From Streptomyces sp. H39-S7 (lineage in GTDB: Bacteria > Actinomycetota > Actinomycetes > Streptomycetales > Streptomycetaceae): a DNA stretch of 64,000 bases. Shown here in pieces: positions 7,649 to 37,232 of this stretch. The first letter of the stretch is position 1. Every line of letters starts with the position of its first letter. A program made the translations under genes and the position numbers. Location: positions 148,868 to 212,867 of the forward strand of contig NZ_JAPVLU010000004.1 of NCBI RefSeq assembly GCF_027158205.1. Reading direction: 5' to 3'. The notes under the pieces are model-generated. The model made no database searches, was not told where the DNA came from, and saw only the letters and a program-made list of their open reading frames with translations.

Positions 7649-7658
7649 CGACCGTCTG

Positions 7659-7732
7659 TGCGCCGTCAGGGACTCGAACCCCGGACCCGCTGATTAAGAG
7701 TCAGCTGCTCTAACCAACTGAGCTAACGGCGC
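7659..7732 (-). tRNA. tRNA-Lys (anticodon CTT), copy 1
   Basis: Read on the minus strand this 74-nt sequence folds as a cloverleaf with acceptor GCGCCGT/ACGGCGC, D-loop AGCTCAGTTGGTTAGAGC, anticodon arm CTGACTCTTAATCAG (anticodon CTT, lysine AAG codons) and T-arm GGGTTCGAGTCCC. The discriminator base is A and CCA is not encoded. A -10-like TACGAT (minus strand, 7748-7753) lies 15 nt upstream. It is identical to the copy at 11753-11826. Confidence 0.97.
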
Positions 7733-11752: not shown

Positions 11753-11826
11753 GCGCCGTTAGCTCAGTTGGTTAGAGCAGCTGACTCTTAATCAGCGGGT
11801 CCGGGGTTCGAGTCCCTGACGGCGCA
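11753..11826 (+). tRNA. tRNA-Lys (anticodon CTT), copy 2
   Basis: This 74-nt cloverleaf has anticodon CTT in the arm CTGACTCTTAATCAG and T-arm GGGTTCGAGTCCC. It is base-for-base identical to the copy at 7659-7732 but in the opposite orientation. CCA is not encoded. Confidence 0.97.
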
Positions 11827-11838
11827 CAGCAGGGCAAG

Positions 11839-22867: not shown

Positions 22868-25800
22868 TCAGCGGCGGCGGACCAGGGGGAACGGCAGGGT
22901 CTCGCGGATCGAGCGGCCGGTAAGGAACATCACCAAGCGGTCGACGCCGATGCCCAGCCCCCCGGTCGGCGGCATCGCGTACTCCAGGGCGGTCAGGAAG
23001 TCCTCGTCCAGCTCCATCGCCTCGGCGTCACCGCCCGCCGCCAGCAGCGACTGCTCGGTGAGCCGGCGCCGCTGCTCCACCGGGTCGGTGAGCTCCGTGT
23101 AGGCGGTGCCCAGTTCGGTGCCGTACGCGACCAGGTCCCAGCGCTCCGCGAGCCGGGGGTCGCCGCGGTGCTGCCGGGTGAGCGGGGAGACGTCCAGCGG
23201 GAAGTCCTTGTAGAACGTCGGGAGGGTGGTGCGCTCCTCGACCAGCCGCTCGTACATCTCCAGCACGATGTCGCCGCGCCCGTCGCCGGGGGAGTGCGGC
23301 ACGCCCGCGCGGTCGCAGAGCCGCCGCAGCGCCTCGGGCGGGGTGTCGGCGGTGACCTCCTCACCGAGCGCCTGCGAGATCGCGTCGTTGACGGTCCGCA
23401 CCGGCCACAGTCCCGACAGGTCGACGTCACCGCCGTCCCGGCGGGCGGTCTGCGAGCCGTTGGCGGCGGTCGCGGCCCGCTGGATCAGCTCACGGGTCAG
23501 GTCCAGCATCGTGTCGTAGTCGGCGTAGGCCTGGTACGCCTCCAGCATCGTGAACTCGGGGTTGTGCTTGTACGACACGCCCTCGTTGCGGAAGGTGCGG
23601 CCGAGTTCGAAGACCTTCTCGACACCGCCGACGCAGAGCCGTTTGAGGTACAGCTCCGGGGCGATGCGCAGGTACAGGTCCAGGTCGTAGGCGTTGATGT
23701 GGGTGGTGAACGGGCGGGCGTTGGCGCCTCCGTGCACCGGCTGCAGCATCGGCGTCTCGACCTCCAGGTACCCGCGGTCCACCAGCGACTCGCGCACCGA
23801 GTGCACCGCCGCGCTGCGGGCCCGCAGCACGTCTCGGGCGTCGGGCCTGACCACCAGGTCGAGGTAGCGCTGCCGGACCCGGGCCTCCGGATCGGTCAGG
23901 CCGCGCCGCTTGTCGGGCAGCGGGTGCAGGCACTTGGCGTTCAGCCGCCACGTGTGCGCGTCGGCGGTCACCTCGCCGGCCCGGCTCACGCCCATCACGG
24001 CCTCGAAGCCCAGCAGGTCGCCCAGGTCGACGTCGGCGGCGAAGGAGCGCATCCCGGCAGTGGTGAAGCGGTCGCGGTCCAGCAGGATCTGCAGGTCGCC
24101 CGACCAGTCCCGCAGCGTCACGAAGAGCACGCCGCCGTGGTCGCGCAGCCGCAGCACCCGCCCCGCCAGCCGTACCCCGGTGCCGGCGGGCGCCGCCGCG
24201 GCGGCGGCCAGGGTGTGCGTCGGCTCGACGCCGGGCGGGTACGGGTCGCTCTCCGCTTCCCGCAGCCGTTCCAGCTTCCGCAGCCTGACGCGCACCTGCT
24301 CCGGGCGTCCGGGGCCGGCCGACCGGCCCGGCCCGGCCGCCGACAGGTCGGCGGCGGCCTCCGCGGCCTCCTCCAGCGGGATGAACACCGGCATCGCGGC
24401 CGGGACCTCCGCGCCGCCCCGGTCCCGCCAGAAGCGCAGCCGCGGCATCTCCACGAAACCCTCCGCGATACCGGAGGCCAGGCCGATACGGGCCAGGTCC
24501 TTCGCCTCCGAGTAGCAGAGGAAGCGCGGGTACCACTGCGGCTGGTACTTCACGTTCGACCGGTACAGCGCCTCCAGCTGCCACCACCGGGAGAAGAAGA
24601 GCAGCAGCCGCCGCCACAGCCGCAGCACCGGCCCCGCACCGATCCTGGCGCCCTCCTCGAAGACCGAGCGGAAGACCGCGAAGTTCAGCGAGATCTGCCG
24701 GATGCCGAGCCGGGGCGACTGCGCGGCCAGCTCCGTCACCATGAACTCCATGATCCCGTTGGGTGCGGCGGGATCGCGCCGCATGACGTCCAGTGAGACC
24801 CCGGCCCGGCCCCACGGCGCGAACGACAGGAGCGCGATGACCTGTCCCGCGTCGTCCAGCGCCTCCACCAGCAGGCAGTCGCCGTCCGCGGGGTCGCCGA
24901 GCCGGCCCAGCGCCATCGAGAAGCCGCGCTCGGTGTCGGTGCCGCGCCAGGCGTCCGCCCGCGCCACCACCTCGCTCAGCTCCTCGGCCGACAGCTCGCG
25001 GTGGCGGCGGATCCGGCTCGTCGCACCGGTGCGCCGCACCCGGTTGACGGCCTGTCGGGTGCCGCGCATCTCGCGGCCTCCCAGATCGAAGCCGCCGACC
25101 TCCAGCACCGCCTCGTCGCCCAGCTCCAGGGCGCCGAGACCGGCCCGCGAGTACGCCTTCGCGCCCTCCTCGCCCGCGCCCATCACGGCCGGCACCCACC
25201 CGTACCGCGCCGCGTGCTCCTGCCACGCCTCGATGGCGGGGCCCCACGCCTCGGTGTCGCCCAGCGGATCACCACTGGCCAGGCAGACGCCCATCTCGAC
25301 GCGGAAGGTGATGGCGGCCTTGCCGCTGGACGAGAAGACCACGGACTTGTCGCGCCGGGTGGCGAAGTAGCCGAGTGAGTCCTGCTCCCCGTACTTCGCC
25401 AGCAGGGCGCGGATCCGCGGCTCGTCGTCGCCGTGCAGCGCCGCTTCGACCTTCTGCGAGCGGAACAGCGCGGCGGCGCCGGCGAGCAGGGCGAGCGCGC
25501 CGAACAGACCGAGCCAGAAGTTGGTCCAGAAGGGTGGATGGCCGATGCCGGACGGCAGGTCGTTGACGCCGCCGACCACCCGGTTGACCGACCAGCGCAG
25601 CCGGTCCTTCCCGACGAGGGTGCCGGGGAACACCGACAGCAGCGCCCAGCCGGCCAGGACGCCGGCCACCAGGCCCAGCACCAGCACCAGCAGCGCCCGC
25701 CAGAACGCGCCCTTGCGCACCCGCGCGGAGAACTCACCGCGCGCGATCACCAGCACGGCGAGCGCCGTGCCGGTGATCAGCAGCGCGGGTACGGCGCTCC

Positions 25801-26101
25801 ACTCCGAGAAGAAGATCAGCACCACGTTCGCCAGGACCGTCAGCCCGAGGAGCACCACGACGATCCAGTAGGCCACCCGCTTGCGCGCCGCCAGCGCCCC
25901 GGCCAGCAGCATCAGGAACGCCGCGTAGGCGAGGTTCGCGGATGCCGGCACCGTCAGGATCTCGATCCAGCGGAGCACGGGACGGAGGAGGCGGTGCAGG
26001 GGGCCGATGACGGCGAGTACGGCGCAGAACACGGCGAGCGCGGCGAAGAACTCCCCGAACCACTCCGGTACCGAGCGTTTCCAGCGGGGTTGTTCCTCCA
26101 T
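22868..26101 (-). CDS. lysX: Bifunctional lysyl-phosphatidylglycerol synthase / lysyl-tRNA synthetase
   Basis: This roughly 1077-aa fusion protein charges tRNA-Lys and transfers lysine to phosphatidylglycerol, making the membrane less negative. An N-terminal block of about six membrane helices (residues 1-190) is followed by a DUF2156/MprF-type transferase domain (about 200-520; SLGYFATRRDKSVVFS, ALGRLGDPADGDCLLVEAL, ISLNFAVFRSVFEEG, YQPQWYPRFLCY), an OB-fold anticodon-binding domain (VRLAGRVLRLRDHGG) and a class II LysRS core with motif 2 FRNEG and motif 3 GIGVDRLVMFLTGR. The architecture is that of actinobacterial LysX, a factor for resistance to cationic peptides. Start at 26101 is the first ATG in good context. 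It is followed by unrelated genes, and a partial paralogue lies at 26998-29613. Confidence 0.94.
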   Translation of the reverse strand: MEEQPRWKRSVPEWFGEFFAALAVFCAVLAVIGPLHRLLRPVLRWIEILTVPASANLAYAAFLMLLAGALAARKRVAYWIVVVLLGLTVLANVVLIFFSEWSAVPALLITGTALAVLVIARGEFSARVRKGAFWRALLVLVLGLVAGVLAGWALLSVFPGTLVGKDRLRWSVNRVVGGVNDLPSGIGHPPFWTNFWLGLFGALALLAGAAALFRSQKVEAALHGDDEPRIRALLAKYGEQDSLGYFATRRDKSVVFSSSGKAAITFRVEMGVCLASGDPLGDTEAWGPAIEAWQEHAARYGWVPAVMGAGEEGAKAYSRAGLGALELGDEAVLEVGGFDLGGREMRGTRQAVNRVRRTGATSRIRRHRELSAEELSEVVARADAWRGTDTERGFSMALGRLGDPADGDCLLVEALDDAGQVIALLSFAPWGRAGVSLDVMRRDPAAPNGIMEFMVTELAAQSPRLGIRQISLNFAVFRSVFEEGARIGAGPVLRLWRRLLLFFSRWWQLEALYRSNVKYQPQWYPRFLCYSEAKDLARIGLASGIAEGFVEMPRLRFWRDRGGAEVPAAMPVFIPLEEAAEAAADLSAAGPGRSAGPGRPEQVRVRLRKLERLREAESDPYPPGVEPTHTLAAAAAAPAGTGVRLAGRVLRLRDHGGVLFVTLRDWSGDLQILLDRDRFTTAGMRSFAADVDLGDLLGFEAVMGVSRAGEVTADAHTWRLNAKCLHPLPDKRRGLTDPEARVRQRYLDLVVRPDARDVLRARSAAVHSVRESLVDRGYLEVETPMLQPVHGGANARPFTTHINAYDLDLYLRIAPELYLKRLCVGGVEKVFELGRTFRNEGVSYKHNPEFTMLEAYQAYADYDTMLDLTRELIQRAATAANGSQTARRDGGDVDLSGLWPVRTVNDAISQALGEEVTADTPPEALRRLCDRAGVPHSPGDGRGDIVLEMYERLVEERTTLPTFYKDFPLDVSPLTRQHRGDPRLAERWDLVAYGTELGTAYTELTDPVEQRRRLTEQSLLAAGGDAEAMELDEDFLTALEYAMPPTGGLGIGVDRLVMFLTGRSIRETLPFPLVRRR

Positions 26102-26172
26102 ACGACCATGCTGGCCGCCCCCGGGGTTTCCGCAACCGGACACCCCGGCCCGCGCCCTCCGGTGGGCGGGCC

Positions 26173-30699: not shown

Positions 30700-30721
30700 A
30701 GGTCAACGGAGTTACCGTAGG

Positions 30722-30795
30722 TGCGCCGCCAGGGACTCGAACCCCGGACCCGCTGATTAAGAGTCAGCTGCTCTAACCAACTGAGCTAGCGGCGC
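30722..30795 (-). tRNA. tRNA-Lys (anticodon CTT), copy 3
   Basis: This 74-nt cloverleaf (minus strand) has anticodon CTT and differs from the two other copies at only two positions, the last pair of the acceptor stem, which is C-G instead of T-A. The pairing is thus preserved. A TAATGT -10-like element lies 14 nt upstream (30810-30815). CCA is not encoded. Confidence 0.97.
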
Positions 30796-31634: not shown

Positions 31635-31997
31635 TCACCGCTCCTGCAGTCGTGTCCCGAACTCGACCATTTTCTTCGCGTAGTCCTCGGTCCAGCCCGA
31701 CTGCTCGGCGATCGCGGCGAACGTCAGCCGGTCGAACCGGCGCGGATCCGCCAACTGGGCCGCAGCTATCGCCTGGTACTCCGTCGCCCGGTCGGCCGCC
31801 GCGCGGAAGGCCAGCGCCAGCTCCGTGGAGCGCGCCAGCAGTTGCCGGGGATCGTCGAGCGACTCCAGGTCGAAGAAGTGCTCCTCGTCGGCGAGGGCCT
31901 GGGCGGGCTCGAAGAGCAGCTCCGCCGGGCGCAGGCGCCGTGCGGTCGCCGGCGGGACGGCGTCGCGCCGGTCGTGAGCCGACTGCGGCTCTGACAT
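31635..31997 (-). CDS. Small uncharacterised protein with a possible HTH
   Basis: This 120-aa protein has a convincing start (ATG with GGAGGT eight bases upstream). It is predicted mostly helical: an acidic middle (LADEEHFFDLESLDDPRQLL) and a C-terminal segment RLTFAAIAEQSGWTEDYAKKMVEFG that looks like a helix-turn-helix. No family is recognised. It lies 91 bp downstream of the helicase gene on the same strand and might belong to that operon. Confidence 0.75.
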   Translation of the reverse strand: MSEPQSAHDRRDAVPPATARRLRPAELLFEPAQALADEEHFFDLESLDDPRQLLARSTELALAFRAAADRATEYQAIAAAQLADPRRFDRLTFAAIAEQSGWTEDYAKKMVEFGTRLQER

Positions 31998-32088: not shown

Positions 32089-33471
32089 CTACGTCCGGTA
32101 GGGGACCCGGTGCTCGTCCAGGTGCGCCAGAACGGCGTGGTTGGCCTCCCAGCCGTCGGGGAACTTCACCGTCACGCCGAGCTGCACCGGTTCGGTCGAC
32201 GGATGCTCGTCCAGCAGCCGGGCCACGCCCGCCCGGCAGACCACGATGCAGGCGTGCCGGTGCCGGGAGGCGAGCACGCACAGCCGGCCCGTCTCCAGGT
32301 GGAAGGCCGTCGCGTCCGGACGGCCGGACAGCGGGTGCAGGAAGACCGTCACGTCGAACTCCCGGCCCTGCAGCCGGTTCGCGGTGTCCACGGCGACCCC
32401 GGCCACGCCCAGCGCGGTGAGCGCCGACCGCACCGCCGCCGCCTGGTCGCGGTGGGCCGTGCCGACGGCGATCCGGTCCGCGGTCAGCGGCGACGGCTCC
32501 TGCGAGCGCTCGCTGAACGTCACCCCGCCCCGGTCCAGCAGCCGCCGCACCACCAGGGCCACCGCGTGCACCGCCTCGGGATCCGTCCGGGGAGTGTGCC
32601 GGGCCGGCAGCTCCAGCAGCCCCCAACCCGACGCGGCCGCCTCGTCCAGCACCTCGTCGGGGCCCGTGCCCTGCGAGGGCACTCCGAAGGACAGCCGCCG
32701 GACGCCGGGCCCGGTGCCGCTGCGGAACGGCGTGTACGGGTAGAACGCCCGCGACACCAGCGGCGCCGCCGACGCCGGGAGCCGCCACGACACCGGCAGC
32801 CGGTGCTGCGGGAGCCCTGGGTTGTGCGCCAGCAGCGTCACCACCGCGCTCGCCGACGGGTCGTAACTCAGCCCCGCCCACTGGTCGGCGCCCACCACGC
32901 TGAACGGGTCCAGCTGCCCGGGGTCACCGACGAACAGCGCCCGTTCGAAGAGCCCGGCCACCTGGAGCAGCGCGTCCGAACGCATTTGGTACGCCTCGTC
33001 GACGATCGCGTGCCTCCAGGGCGACGTCAGGTCGGTGGTCTTGACGTACGCCCACTTCGCCGAGGTCGCGATCACCACCTTCTGCTGGGCGAGATCGGCC
33101 ACCTTCGCGGACTTCACGATCGACGGATGCCGGTCGAGCAGCGGATCGGGCGGCGACTCCGCGCCGTGCAACCGTCCGATCGCCAGTCCGGGATCGGCGG
33201 TCGCCAACCGGTCCGCGAGGTCGTCCACCTGCGCGTTCGTCTGCGCGACGACCATCAACGACTCGCCCGCCGCGGCCAGTTCCTGCGCGGCGCGCACCAC
33301 GAGCGTCGACTTGCCGGCGCCCGGCGGGGAGTCGACGACGACACCGCGCGACGACCCGTGGAGCGTGTCGCGCAGGATCGCCTCCGTGACCGCCGCCGCC
33401 TCGGCCGCGGGGTCGCGCGGAGCGGGGCGGGCCGAACCGTGGGGCGGTGAGTCCTCCGTCGTGCGGCTCAC
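32089..33471 (-). CDS. Compact superfamily 1 (Dna2/Upf1-like) helicase
   Basis: This 460-aa ATPase has all main SF1B motifs: Walker A SPPGAGKST (about 48-56), Walker B IVDEAYQ (about 156-162), motif III VGDPGQLDPF (181-190), a motif IV-like SWRLP, motif V DTANRLQGREFDVTVF and motif VI LCVLASRHRHACIVV. The core is unusually short; the accessory 1B beta-barrel and stalk of Dna2 or RecD-like enzymes have little room. The GTG overlaps the stop codon of the preceding gene (GTGA), so it is co-translated with it. With the upstream Fe-S nuclease this suggests a DNA end-processing machine. It is the third of three overlapping genes. Confidence 0.88.
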   Translation of the reverse strand: MSRTTEDSPPHGSARPAPRDPAAEAAAVTEAILRDTLHGSSRGVVVDSPPGAGKSTLVVRAAQELAAAGESLMVVAQTNAQVDDLADRLATADPGLAIGRLHGAESPPDPLLDRHPSIVKSAKVADLAQQKVVIATSAKWAYVKTTDLTSPWRHAIVDEAYQMRSDALLQVAGLFERALFVGDPGQLDPFSVVGADQWAGLSYDPSASAVVTLLAHNPGLPQHRLPVSWRLPASAAPLVSRAFYPYTPFRSGTGPGVRRLSFGVPSQGTGPDEVLDEAAASGWGLLELPARHTPRTDPEAVHAVALVVRRLLDRGGVTFSERSQEPSPLTADRIAVGTAHRDQAAAVRSALTALGVAGVAVDTANRLQGREFDVTVFLHPLSGRPDATAFHLETGRLCVLASRHRHACIVVCRAGVARLLDEHPSTEPVQLGVTVKFPDGWEANHAVLAHLDEHRVPYRT

Positions 33472-35030
33472 AGGAAGTCCTCCACGGTGACGGGATCGGG
33501 TGCGGGGGCGGCCGGCGGGGCGGCGGACTGCGGCGGGCCGCCGTGCGTCCACGGCGTGTCCTCGGGGTCGGGCAGCTCGGGACCGCCGCGCGGCGCGTGC
33601 TCGAACAGCGTCCAGCACACGAGGTCGCCGGCGGCGGGCACGGATCCCTCGTCGGGGACCTTGCCGCGGCCCATGCCGTTCAGCAGCCGCACCGTGACCT
33701 CGCCCGGCGCGGGCCACTCCACGAAGCGCGCCTCCTGGGTCTTCCCACCGGGCAGCGCGCGGTAGAGCTTCGCGTCGGTGTCGAAGTGCGGCACGTCCGC
33801 GGTCGCGACCGTCACCAGCGGGCGCGGGCGCGGCACCTTCGCCTCGCTGTACGCCATCACCACGTCGGTGACCTCGCCCGCGAACGCCTCGCCGGACAGC
33901 CGCCGGCCGGCCATCACCAGCGGATCGTCCAACGCCTCCTGCGCCTCCAGCCGCACCTGGGCCGTCTCCCGGCCCATCAGTTTCTGCGCGGCGGCGATGG
34001 CGTCGTCGCGCTTCGGCTGCGGCGGCTCACCGGCCCGCACCCGGTCCCGGTGCGCGGTGAACGACCAGCGGTCCCGCTTCCAGCGCTCCTCGACGTGCCC
34101 GCCCTCGGGCAGCGCCCGCAGCAGGTCGAGCCCGCGCCACACATCGTCCCAGGTCGGCCGCAACTGACTCTCGACAAGCCCCCGCACCTCGGCCTCGGCG
34201 ACGGCGGTCGCGGGGGTCCGCTCCTCGCCCGCCGCCCGCGCCGCCGCGCGGGCCGCGTCGAAGCGGGACATCGCGGGGGCCAGCACCGTGTTGTCGAAGG
34301 CGGGGTCGGTCGCCGGGCCCGCGGGCGGGCTCAGCAGCAGGCCGTCGGCGCCGCGCCCGGTCTCCGCGCGGCGGGCCGCCTCCGCGCCGGTCATGTCCTC
34401 GGGAGGGTCGATCCAGCCGAGCAGCGCGCCCAGGTGCTGGTCCTCCAGATTGCTCTGGCCGGTCGCCCAGTGGCGCGACAGCAGCTCCGTCATCGACAGC
34501 AGCAGGCAGGCGCCGGGTGTGCGGGCGCGCTCCCCGTACTGCGTCAGCCAGCGCCCGGCCAGCGGGACCCGCGACGGCACGGGGTAGGGCTCGTCGGGAT
34601 TCTCCTCCGCCGTGCGGCGGAAGCGGGTGGAGCGGCCGAGCAGCCGGACGTAGTCGGCCGCCGCGGCGTTCGGCACGATGATCTGCGGGGCGTCCGCGCA
34701 GACCTCGGACTCCTCGCGGTTGCGTGTCGCCGGTTCGGTCTCGACCTCGTCCGCGTACCGGTCCATGTGCGCGACGACCGTGGTCGCCAGCGCCGCGAGG
34801 AAGTCGAACCGCAGGTCCCGGTCGCGCGGCTGCGGCACCACCAGGAGGCTCGGCGCCTTCCGGTCGCGGCCCATCAGCGCGCCCAGCGGCGCGCCGACCT
34901 CGCCCGCCGTGGTCAGCGGCACGAACACCAGGGGATGCGGCGACAGGTGCCGGTGCCTGACCGTCGCCAACGGCTGCGCGCGGCCCGCGACCACGGCCTC
35001 GGCCCGCGCCAGGGTCCCGATCAGCGACAT
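33468..35030 (-). CDS. Uncharacterised 520-aa protein between nuclease and helicase
   Basis: I do not recognise this protein. It starts at an ATG inside the end of the nuclease gene (10-bp overlap) with GGGAGGTG upstream, and its stop overlaps the helicase start, so a stoichiometric complex is likely. The N-terminal part is alpha/beta with PLTTAGEVGAPLGALMGRD and PSLLVVPQPRDRDLRFDFL; the middle is helical; the C-terminal 100 residues are beta-rich (LVTVATADVPHFDTDAKLYR, EVTVRLLNGMGRGKVPDEG, AGDLVCWTLFEH) and could be an OB fold or beta-barrel. No catalytic motifs are evident. A role as a DNA-binding or bridging subunit is inference. Confidence 0.8.
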   Translation of the reverse strand: MSLIGTLARAEAVVAGRAQPLATVRHRHLSPHPLVFVPLTTAGEVGAPLGALMGRDRKAPSLLVVPQPRDRDLRFDFLAALATTVVAHMDRYADEVETEPATRNREESEVCADAPQIIVPNAAAADYVRLLGRSTRFRRTAEENPDEPYPVPSRVPLAGRWLTQYGERARTPGACLLLSMTELLSRHWATGQSNLEDQHLGALLGWIDPPEDMTGAEAARRAETGRGADGLLLSPPAGPATDPAFDNTVLAPAMSRFDAARAAARAAGEERTPATAVAEAEVRGLVESQLRPTWDDVWRGLDLLRALPEGGHVEERWKRDRWSFTAHRDRVRAGEPPQPKRDDAIAAAQKLMGRETAQVRLEAQEALDDPLVMAGRRLSGEAFAGEVTDVVMAYSEAKVPRPRPLVTVATADVPHFDTDAKLYRALPGGKTQEARFVEWPAPGEVTVRLLNGMGRGKVPDEGSVPAAGDLVCWTLFEHAPRGGPELPDPEDTPWTHGGPPQSAAPPAAPAPDPVTVEDFL

Positions 35031-36160
35031 CCGGCACCTCCCGCGGCGAGCGCCTCGGCGCGCAGGACGGCGGCGCGGCGCAGCGCGGCGACGGCCGGAT
35101 CCGCCGCGGCGCTCGCCGCGTCGGTGCCCCGGGCGGCGGACAGCACGGCCTCGACCGTGGTGAGGGTGCCCAGTTCACCGCGCAGACCCCGGCCCAGGGA
35201 CTCGACGGAGCCGCAGGCGCGGGAGCGGCCGCGGCAGTGGAAGGCCAGCTCGCAGGCGGCCAGGCACTCGGGGGAGTACGCGGCGGGGAGCGCCTCGACG
35301 GCGGCGGTCAGCTCGGGGGCCGGCCGGGTCGGCGTCCGGCCGTCCTCGGACCAGCGCAGGTCGAACGTGGTGCCGTCCGGCAGTTCCGCGGCGATCTCCT
35401 CGATACGCGTCAGCCGGGTGAGCTGCCGCCGGGTCACCGACAGCTGCTTGCGCACGTCGACGAACTGGGCGGTGGGCAGGTTGGAGAAGTCCTTGGGGCA
35501 CACCAGCAGCACATCGTGCGAGACCCGCACAGGACCCGGTGTCTCCTCCAGCGTCGGCGCCAGCCGTTCCAGCGCCAGCACGTAGACGGCGGCCTGGCGG
35601 GCGGCGGCGCCCACCTTCACCGAGTCCGCGCCGCCGTCCAGGATCGGGAAGGACTTGACCTCGACGACCGTCCAGCCGCCGTCCGGCGCGACCGCCACCG
35701 CGTCCGGCTCCAGGTAGGCGGTCGAGCCCGCCACGTCCAGCGTCAGCAGGGGGTGGTCCAGCAGCGTCCAGCAGCCGGCGGTGGTCGCCTCCGCGAGGGC
35801 CAGCCGGGTCCTGGCCGTACGGCCCTCGGGGCCGGCGGCCGACAGGTCCGGCAGCAGCGCGCCGCTGTCCTCGGGGGCGCCCAGCAGCCGCAGCAGCTCG
35901 GCGCACTTCTCCGCCTTGACCCGGGCCTCGAAGGCATGGCCGCGGGCGAAGGCGAACTGGGACTGCCCGAAGGGGGCGGGCGCGCCCAGCACCTGCGCGA
36001 CCGCCCCCTTGTCGATCCCGGCGGCGTCGAGCAGGGCCCGGCGGCGGCAGCCGGGGTTCGCGGCCAGGGCCGCGAGGGCCCGCGCGTCGAGCGGACGTGG
36101 TGGTGTGGCCGGTCCGCGCAACTCGGCCAGCCGCTCCCGCAGATAGTGCGTAGTGCTCAC
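35021..36160 (-). CDS. RecB/Cas4/AddB-like nuclease with iron-sulfur cysteines
   Basis: This 379-aa protein carries a PD-(D/E)XK nuclease domain of the RecB type: H75 in GHAFEARV, D153 in LEPDAVAV, E167 and K169 in VVEVKSF, and the Q189-x3-Y193 motif RQAAVYV. A single Cys upstream (C38, NPGCRRR) and a C-terminal group C299, C303, C309 and C316 (ECLAACELAFHCRGRSRAC) reproduce the split cysteine arrangement that holds a 4Fe-4S cluster in Cas4, AddB and Dna2. It should cut single-stranded DNA ends. The start is a GTG; it is 21 bp downstream of the PAP2 gene. No cas genes or CRISPR arrays are nearby, so a Cas4 role in adaptation is unlikely. Confidence 0.87.
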   Translation of the reverse strand: MSTTHYLRERLAELRGPATPPRPLDARALAALAANPGCRRRALLDAAGIDKGAVAQVLGAPAPFGQSQFAFARGHAFEARVKAEKCAELLRLLGAPEDSGALLPDLSAAGPEGRTARTRLALAEATTAGCWTLLDHPLLTLDVAGSTAYLEPDAVAVAPDGGWTVVEVKSFPILDGGADSVKVGAAARQAAVYVLALERLAPTLEETPGPVRVSHDVLLVCPKDFSNLPTAQFVDVRKQLSVTRRQLTRLTRIEEIAAELPDGTTFDLRWSEDGRTPTRPAPELTAAVEALPAAYSPECLAACELAFHCRGRSRACGSVESLGRGLRGELGTLTTVEAVLSAARGTDAASAAADPAVAALRRAAVLRAEALAAGGAGCR

Positions 36161-36181: not shown

Positions 36182-37177
36182 CTACGACAATCGGCTCTGA
36201 CCCACGGAAGACCTGCCCGAGGGGTCGGTTCTGTGCTCGTCCTCCGACGCCGTCCGCGGGGTCGGGACCCCGCTGGGTGCCGGGTCGTGCGGCGTGCTCC
36301 TGGAAGCCCCCGGAGCCGGGGCCCTCGACTTCGTGCCGGAGACGTCCGCCGAGGCCGCGACGACCGGGCTGTGGCCCTCCGCCGAGGTGGTGGCGCCGGA
36401 CCGGACGGCCCGCCGGGCGCGCAGCGCGTCGACGGCGTGCAGGGCCTTCGGGGCCAGCAGGTACCCGATGCCCATGACGGCCGCACCGGCGACCGCGTCC
36501 AGCAGGTAGTGGTTGGCGGTGCCCATCACCACGAACGTGGTGATCAGCGGGTACAGGATGCCCAGCGAGCGCACCAGCGGGGTCCGCCCGTAACGCCAGA
36601 GCATGATCCCGCACCACAGCGCCCAGCCGACGTGCAGGCTCGGCATCGCCGCGTACTGGTTGGTGAGCCCGCCCAGGCCGCGCGGGGCGCTGGCCTCCTG
36701 GCCCCACCAGCCGTAGGAGCCGTACTGCGCCATGGTGTCGATGAAGCCGTGGCTGGCGTCGAGCAGCCGCGGCGGGGCCGTGGGCGTCAGGGTGAAGCCG
36801 ATCAGGCCGATCAGGGTGGAGAGCATCAGCCACGTGCGGGCCGCGCGGTAGTGCGTCGGCCGCCGCCGCCACAGCCACACCAGGATCGCGGGCGTCACGA
36901 GGTAGTGCAGGGAGGCGTACGCGAAGTCCGCGGGGACACCGATCGCCGCGTGCTTCGTGAAGATGCCGTTGAGCCAGCGCTCCGGGTCGATCCGCATCAG
37001 CTGTTCGAGATGCAGGATGTCGATCCCGCTCTCCATGGCGTTGGCCACGTCGCCGCGGACCAGGAGGCGGCCGGACGAGTACAGGGCGTACACGACGGCG
37101 ATGAGCGGCAGCTCGGTCCACCAGCGCAGCCGGCCCCGATAGGCCGAGGCGCGAGGCGCTGTGGCGGTGATCGTCAT
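36182..37177 (-). CDS. PAP2-superfamily membrane phosphatase
   Basis: This 331-aa protein has about six membrane helices and the PAP2 phosphatase motifs in the order TPTAPPRLL, MPSLHVGWALW and NHYLLDAVAG, giving a lipid-phosphate phosphatase or phosphotransferase with its active site facing outside. The pattern of PPRLL and SLHVGW is that of the inositolphosphoryl-transferase-like branch. A long Pro/Ser/Arg-rich tail (about 60 residues) is probably cytoplasmic and unstructured. I chose the ATG at 37177, preceded by GGGGAG. It is divergent from a TetR gene and a palindrome lies between them, so TetR control is plausible. The nuclease operon begins 21 bp downstream on the same strand. Confidence 0.88.
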   Translation of the reverse strand: MTITATAPRASAYRGRLRWWTELPLIAVVYALYSSGRLLVRGDVANAMESGIDILHLEQLMRIDPERWLNGIFTKHAAIGVPADFAYASLHYLVTPAILVWLWRRRPTHYRAARTWLMLSTLIGLIGFTLTPTAPPRLLDASHGFIDTMAQYGSYGWWGQEASAPRGLGGLTNQYAAMPSLHVGWALWCGIMLWRYGRTPLVRSLGILYPLITTFVVMGTANHYLLDAVAGAAVMGIGYLLAPKALHAVDALRARRAVRSGATTSAEGHSPVVAASADVSGTKSRAPAPGASRSTPHDPAPSGVPTPRTASEDEHRTDPSGRSSVGQSRLS

Positions 37178-37232
37178 GCGGCCGTTCTCCCCGTTCTGCG
37201 GATGTGGCTCGTTGCGGACCATGTCGTAGGCT

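Follow-up and report, generated by a model that had tools for sequence, protein, structure and literature searches.

In helicases of the Upf1 type and in Dna2, the two RecA-like domains are accompanied by a stalk and a beta-barrel, and the cysteines of the Dna2 nuclease are spaced C-x2-C-x5-C. The parts of Dna2 follow one another in the order nuclease, stalk and beta-barrel and, over about 450 residues, the helicase domain (PMC4716839). AddAB and AdnAB are multi-subunit bacterial helicase-nucleases composed of two large subunits, in which UvrD-type SF1A motors are fused to nucleases. In the TM0106 family (TIGR03491), a RecB-like nuclease is fused to an SF1 helicase in a single chain of about 1130–1270 aa. 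We describe here a module of three genes, NUC, MID and HEL, from Streptomyces sp. H39-S7 (GCF_027158205.1; host genome of 9.5 Mb). It lies in a window of 64,000 nt (NZ_JAPVLU010000004.1, 148,868–212,867, forward strand; mean GC content about 72%), to which window coordinates and residue numbers refer, position 1 being its first letter. The explanation we favour, with a probability of about 0.6, is that NUC-MID-HEL is a split Dna2-like helicase-nuclease, the three proteins forming one complex that acts on DNA ends or flaps. Searches of the open-access literature (most subscription journals and bioRxiv lie outside this coverage) turned up no account of the module, and publications on SiwR/WYL, Cas4 phylogenomics and conflict systems do not cover it.

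The order of the genes, NUC-MID-HEL, is that of the Dna2 domains (PMC4716839). Like Dna2, the module includes a PD-(D/E)XK nuclease with a predicted Fe-S cluster, one upstream and three downstream cysteines being conserved in NUC; HEL has an SF1B Upf1-like core, for which DNA2 is the best single-sequence match in the PDB (E 7e-6), and some of the module loci are genomically linked to a homologue of Mre11-Rad50 (SbcCD). Unlike Dna2, which is one polypeptide, the module consists of three separate chains in every locus. Its cysteine spacing is C-x3-C-x5-C, it has no N-terminal OB fold (the NUC model begins with helices leading to C38), and the N-terminal region of MID (about 300 aa) has no counterpart in Dna2. 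Given its several chains and the missing OB fold, the module stands outside the Dna2 family in the strict sense. It shares with AddAB and AdnAB a multi-subunit bacterial organization, and the NUC fold distantly resembles the nuclease domain of AdnA, but its motor is an unfused SF1B protein (AAA_11/AAA_12); because the motor class differs, it is not an AddAB/AdnAB system. Nor is it TM0106: in a comparison with actinobacterial fusion proteins of that family, HEL matched the helicase region over 363 columns (hhalign probability 99.6), whereas NUC matched only weakly (hhalign probability 2.9) and the MID profile not at all. The TM0106 family is absent from all four sampled genomes of the window's family.

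Gene layout and inheritance

A first-pass annotation of this DNA had described three overlapping open reading frames, and these are present on the minus strand at the positions it gave. NUC (35021..36160, 379 aa) is a putative Fe-S PD-(D/E)XK nuclease subunit, assigned from its reading frame, conservation and an AF2 model; MID (33468..35030, 520 aa) is an orphan middle subunit known from its AF2 model, with no sequence family; and HEL (32089..33471, 460 aa) is a minimal SF1B helicase with AAA_11/AAA_12 domains. Both overlaps were also found in the sequence: NUC and MID share 10 bp (35021..35030), and the stop codon of MID and the start codon of HEL overlap in GTGA (33468..33471, minus strand), from which translational coupling of MID to HEL would be expected.

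The three genes are found together or not at all. A survey of 394 genomes of the class detected NUC in 76 and MID and HEL in 77 each; all three occur in the same 76 genomes, and the others have none, two stray matches aside. An extra HEL match in genome G339 (E 4e-46, versus E ≤ 1e-163 for true members) was rejected as another SF1B helicase, and a MID match in genome G040, antisense to a membrane NADH-dehydrogenase-type gene, as due to chance. Of 22 genomes chosen separately, seven had both NUC and HEL, with MID in all seven, and 15 had neither; genomes with two copies hold two complete trios. The genes lie on one strand in the order NUC-MID-HEL in 181/181 collected loci with all three (some of these loci overlap), with overlapping start and stop codons in most loci. 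This constant order and the joint presence or absence across the 394 genomes put the linkage far beyond chance. The gene order is identical in a second class of the phylum, at about 25% identity. The trees of the three proteins are congruent (pairwise-distance r of 0.965–0.97), and no gene fusion among them was found in about 200 loci searched. NUC, MID and HEL are an obligate three-protein module. The survey supports the linkage seen in the first-pass annotation: separation of the genes is no routine matter, HEL alone having moved, in one family (f34), where it lies 36–50 kb from NUC-MID yet is retained. A HEL fragment with an internal stop (G215:C4:1351875-1352258, profile positions 19–148) between a relocated HEL and NUC-MID is perhaps a relic of the relocation. 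Two interruptions of the module were also seen: a TnpB-like open reading frame with a zinc-finger CxxC pattern inserted between MID and HEL (L075:9240-10800), and a stretch of about 1 kb made up of GC-rich tandem repeats between NUC and MID (L045:6445-7495).

The copy in the window belongs to a core copy present in 43 of the 44 sampled genomes of the family (Streptomycetaceae), and the Streptomyces core copy forms a single clade in all three trees. Its neighbours, compared by all-versus-all BLAST on coding-like open reading frames, are conserved. In the window, NUC is preceded, at a distance of 21 bases, by a PAP2 gene (36182-37222), and HEL is followed by SM4 (31635..31997, minus strand, 120 aa), a Prim-Pol/SCO3374-like gene and a tRNA-Lys gene. 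Apart from the window, nine core-copy loci were fetched, and SM4 is present in all of them and in no locus of other families; among the fetched loci it is restricted to core copies of Streptomycetaceae. A Pfam search of SM4 gave no match, and it is probably a neighbour gene rather than a subunit.

Predicted properties of the three subunits

The motifs listed for NUC in the first-pass annotation are all present in the window. In an alignment of NUC from 50 loci, E151-P152-D153, Y193 (of the motif Q189-x3-Y193) and each of the cysteines of C299-x3-C303-x5-C309 are conserved in 50/50; C38 is conserved in 48 (the other two having a gap and an X), K169 of the E167-x-K169 motif in 48, Q189 in 48 and E167 in 46. 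Two of the residues originally listed did not hold up: position 75, read as an active-site histidine, is not conserved (32 loci have N and 6 have H), and C316, the last cysteine, taken as the fourth downstream one, is kept in only 14/50. Since C316 is not conserved, the plausible Fe-S quartet consists of C38 and the C-x3-C-x5-C group. The second class, at about 25% identity, also keeps the catalytic and Fe-S residues nearly unchanged, four relatives from it retaining C38, D153, E167, K169, Q189, Y193, C299, C303 and C309. The AF2 model of NUC (pLDDT 92) matched, by Foldseek against the PDB, MGME1, the Cas4-family protein ACE1, RecE, Cas4, EXO5, Dna2 and AdnA, with low TM-scores of 0.2–0.3 by query. 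No Pfam model scored above the cut-off for NUC; the most frequent nuclease family match was PDDEXK_1, in 8/49 members (best E 0.0012). An NCBIfam search gave nothing but a chance match, and the TIGR03491 model was not matched. Matches of the NUC profile to the designed repeat proteins OR497 and OR329 in the PDB were rejected as compositional. MarR_2/HTH matches on residues 24–58 were rejected too, being below the cut-off and overlapping the C38 Fe-S segment. The conserved residues and the predicted fold support the assignment of NUC as an Fe-S PD-(D/E)XK nuclease of the RecB/Cas4/Dna2 type, in agreement with its earlier designation as a RecB-type nuclease. Two lineages carry catalytic substitutions, E167L with K169R (L054/L055) and E167A with Q189E (L076/L087), and keep the whole module. 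With E167 and one of K169 and Q189 gone in these lineages, catalysis would be dispensable in some copies; either NUC also does something other than cut DNA, or the copies in question are inactive.

HEL has the Pfam domains AAA_11/AAA_12 and all the SF1 motifs, with SPPGAGKST, DEAY, GDPGQLDPF, SWRLP, RLQGRE and SRHRHA invariant or nearly so. Its profile matched SMUBP-2 (8e-12) and DNA2 (2e-11) in the PDB, and UPF1 is also among its relatives. Only 43 residues precede the Walker A motif, versus 176 positions in the IGHMBP2-family model, which makes HEL resemble a bare motor, lacking the stalk and beta-barrel of Upf1-type helicases and Dna2. These features support HEL as a minimal SF1B Upf1/Dna2-like helicase, and confirm the short core of 460 aa recognized earlier.

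MID found no family in Pfam, NCBIfam, PADLOC, PHROG or the PDB sequences; its closest named relative is from Streptomyces fildesensis (95% identity). Its AF2 model is confident (pLDDT 89.7) and predicts an N-terminal alpha/beta region, long helices (313–378), a six-strand beta-barrel (382–474) and a low-confidence tail. The tail contains a PWTH motif (493–496), of which W494-T495-H496 is invariant and may be a docking motif. A Foldseek search of the model against 350,542 PDB chains gave nothing below E 0.001. The UPF1 helicase core (2gk6) ranked second, as a weak match (E 3.9e-3, TM about 0.12), and UPF1 again tenth (E 0.014), with alignments of about 135 columns; the remaining matches are mostly generic six-strand barrels, and other such barrels score like UPF1. 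Comparisons of sequence profiles gave no evidence of a 1B domain in MID. The model agrees with a stalk and 1B domain, short of proof. The first-pass suggestion that MID supplies the missing barrel and stalk is supported by the predicted architecture, with helices and a barrel modelled and the UPF1 core ranking high, but the homology is weak, at E 0.004 and with sequence profiles silent. MID fits no metabolic family.

Accessory copies and their neighbours

In 28 loci, a fourth gene, UP (249–291 aa), lies immediately upstream of NUC (at L092:10721-11563, for example; one of the 28 aligned). UP has no database family match; it has a coiled-coil-like N-terminus followed by a conserved ‘LRRDEERSF...ARPYY’ block, which may be a winged helix. 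Among 14 genomes tested, UP was present only in the two carrying an accessory copy, and it has so far been seen solely alongside NUC-MID-HEL copies. A divergent SbcD-SbcC pair adjoins UP-NUC-MID-HEL in 10 loci (L051, L052, L053, L059, L060, L061, L073, L077, L092 and L093), an adjacency that, on a plain locus count, should be rare by chance in genomes of this size. In three of these ten accessory copies (L051, L092 and L093), Wadjet (JetABCD) genes, JetA/C/D, lie beside or near HEL, and SbcCD, Wadjet and the module possibly form a composite defence island there. In contrast to the SbcCD and Wadjet islands that they adjoin, NUC, MID, HEL and UP are components of no PADLOC system: none of NUC, MID, SM4 and UP had a PADLOC match, and HEL drew nothing but weak matches to generic helicases. 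Other accessory copies adjoin GmrSD-type or ResIII-type genes. The plasmid copies L092 and L093 nest in the tree with copies of other families, which indicates their horizontal transfer, and SbcCD-linked copies move horizontally, in defence-like islands. A viral Foldseek search gave no match at E ≤ 0.001, an SDE3-like helicase ranking 20th, and no phage or viral relatives of the module were found. The defence role put forward in the first-pass annotation suits the accessory copies, with their SbcCD, Wadjet and GmrSD neighbours; for the window's own Streptomyces copy, which is inherited vertically, it is not obvious.

Two accessory copies lie near replicon ends, one (G361:C1:14079-18938) at about 15 kb from that of a single-contig chromosome and the other (NZ_CP108489.1:284630-288625) at about 12–16 kb from that of a linear plasmid; accessory copies possibly prefer telomere-proximal sites. 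In another class of the phylum, a TM0106-like protein with a PD-(D/E)XK nuclease and an RNase H-like domain directly follows NUC-MID-HEL (L185:6062-7753).

Possible mechanism and rival explanations

From gene linkage, motif conservation, predicted folds, co-inheritance and the association with SbcCD, all direct results, we infer a physical complex with the following activities, polarity, substrate and biological role. HEL, as an SF1B 1A/2A motor, would pull single-stranded DNA in the 5'->3' direction, MID would clamp HEL to NUC and provide the stalk and beta-barrel absent from HEL, and NUC, its tunnel held by a 4Fe-4S cluster, would cut the threaded strand. The cellular task would be the processing of DNA ends or flaps; in Streptomyces, as in several further actinomycete families, it would serve genome maintenance and be passed on vertically. 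Accessory copies with UP and SbcCD would turn the same machine on ends that SbcCD has opened, resecting or degrading them, plausibly on incoming DNA. By analogy, this accessory lineage most likely pairs the module with SbcCD in parallel to the pairing of Mre11-Rad50 with Dna2. Against the split Dna2-like reading count the weak match of MID to UPF1, the low TM-scores of the NUC model, the absence of fusions and of an N-terminal OB fold, and the two lineages with substituted catalytic residues. We advance more tentatively, as a possibility with the odds somewhat against it, a full actinobacterial counterpart of Mre11-Rad50/Dna2, in which a split Dna2 is inherited vertically in most streptomycetes and mobile cassettes with their own SbcCD and a UP subunit serve immunity.

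The module could instead be primarily an anti-plasmid or anti-phage effector, with SbcCD, Wadjet or UP recognizing or opening foreign DNA, NUC-MID-HEL degrading it and the core copy being a domesticated resident defence. The islands with SbcCD, JetA/C/D, GmrSD-type and ResIII-type genes, some of them on plasmids, and the horizontal transfer indicated by the tree speak for this, but a copy that is present in nearly all sampled genomes of the family with conserved synteny is unlike patchy defence genes. PADLOC was also silent or generic, and viral relatives were not found, which makes a primary defence function rather unlikely. The absence of gene fusions, the ability of HEL to sit away from NUC-MID and the weak barrel match of MID would also suit three proteins acting sequentially in one repair pathway, with no threading machine: NUC as a Cas4/EXO5-like exonuclease, HEL as a separate helicase and MID as a regulatory or unrelated DNA-binding adaptor. 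We consider this unlikely in view of the near-perfect co-occurrence, the overlapping codons, the congruent trees and the lack of the usual N-terminal accessory region in HEL.

Relatives of the Upf1/IGHMBP2 type act on RNA or RNA:DNA hybrids, and the known proteins of the NUC nuclease class have DNA substrates. HEL might accordingly act on RNA or hybrids, the module resolving R-loops or trimming RNA primers; SMUBP-2 and UPF1, RNA/DNA helicases, are among the closest solved relatives of HEL, and the TM0106-like neighbour in L185 has an RNase H-type domain. Against this stand the DNA substrates of the nuclease class and the SbcCD neighbours, which point to DNA ends, and an RNA-directed function seems improbable. 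If the split Dna2-like reading is true, Streptomyces would have a DNA-processing complex that is near-universal in the genus yet apparently undescribed, having escaped notice because family databases contain no match to the nuclease and middle subunits. The module would be a bacterial split Dna2 in which motor, barrel and nuclease are open to separate study and swapping, would connect bacterial SbcCD with a partner of the Dna2 type, and would bear on linear-chromosome maintenance and foreign-DNA exclusion in Streptomyces.

The 64-kb window also contains three tRNA-Lys(CTT) genes (7658-7732, 11753-11827 and 30720-30795), together with a fused MprF-like/lysyl-tRNA synthetase-like gene (22868-26143).
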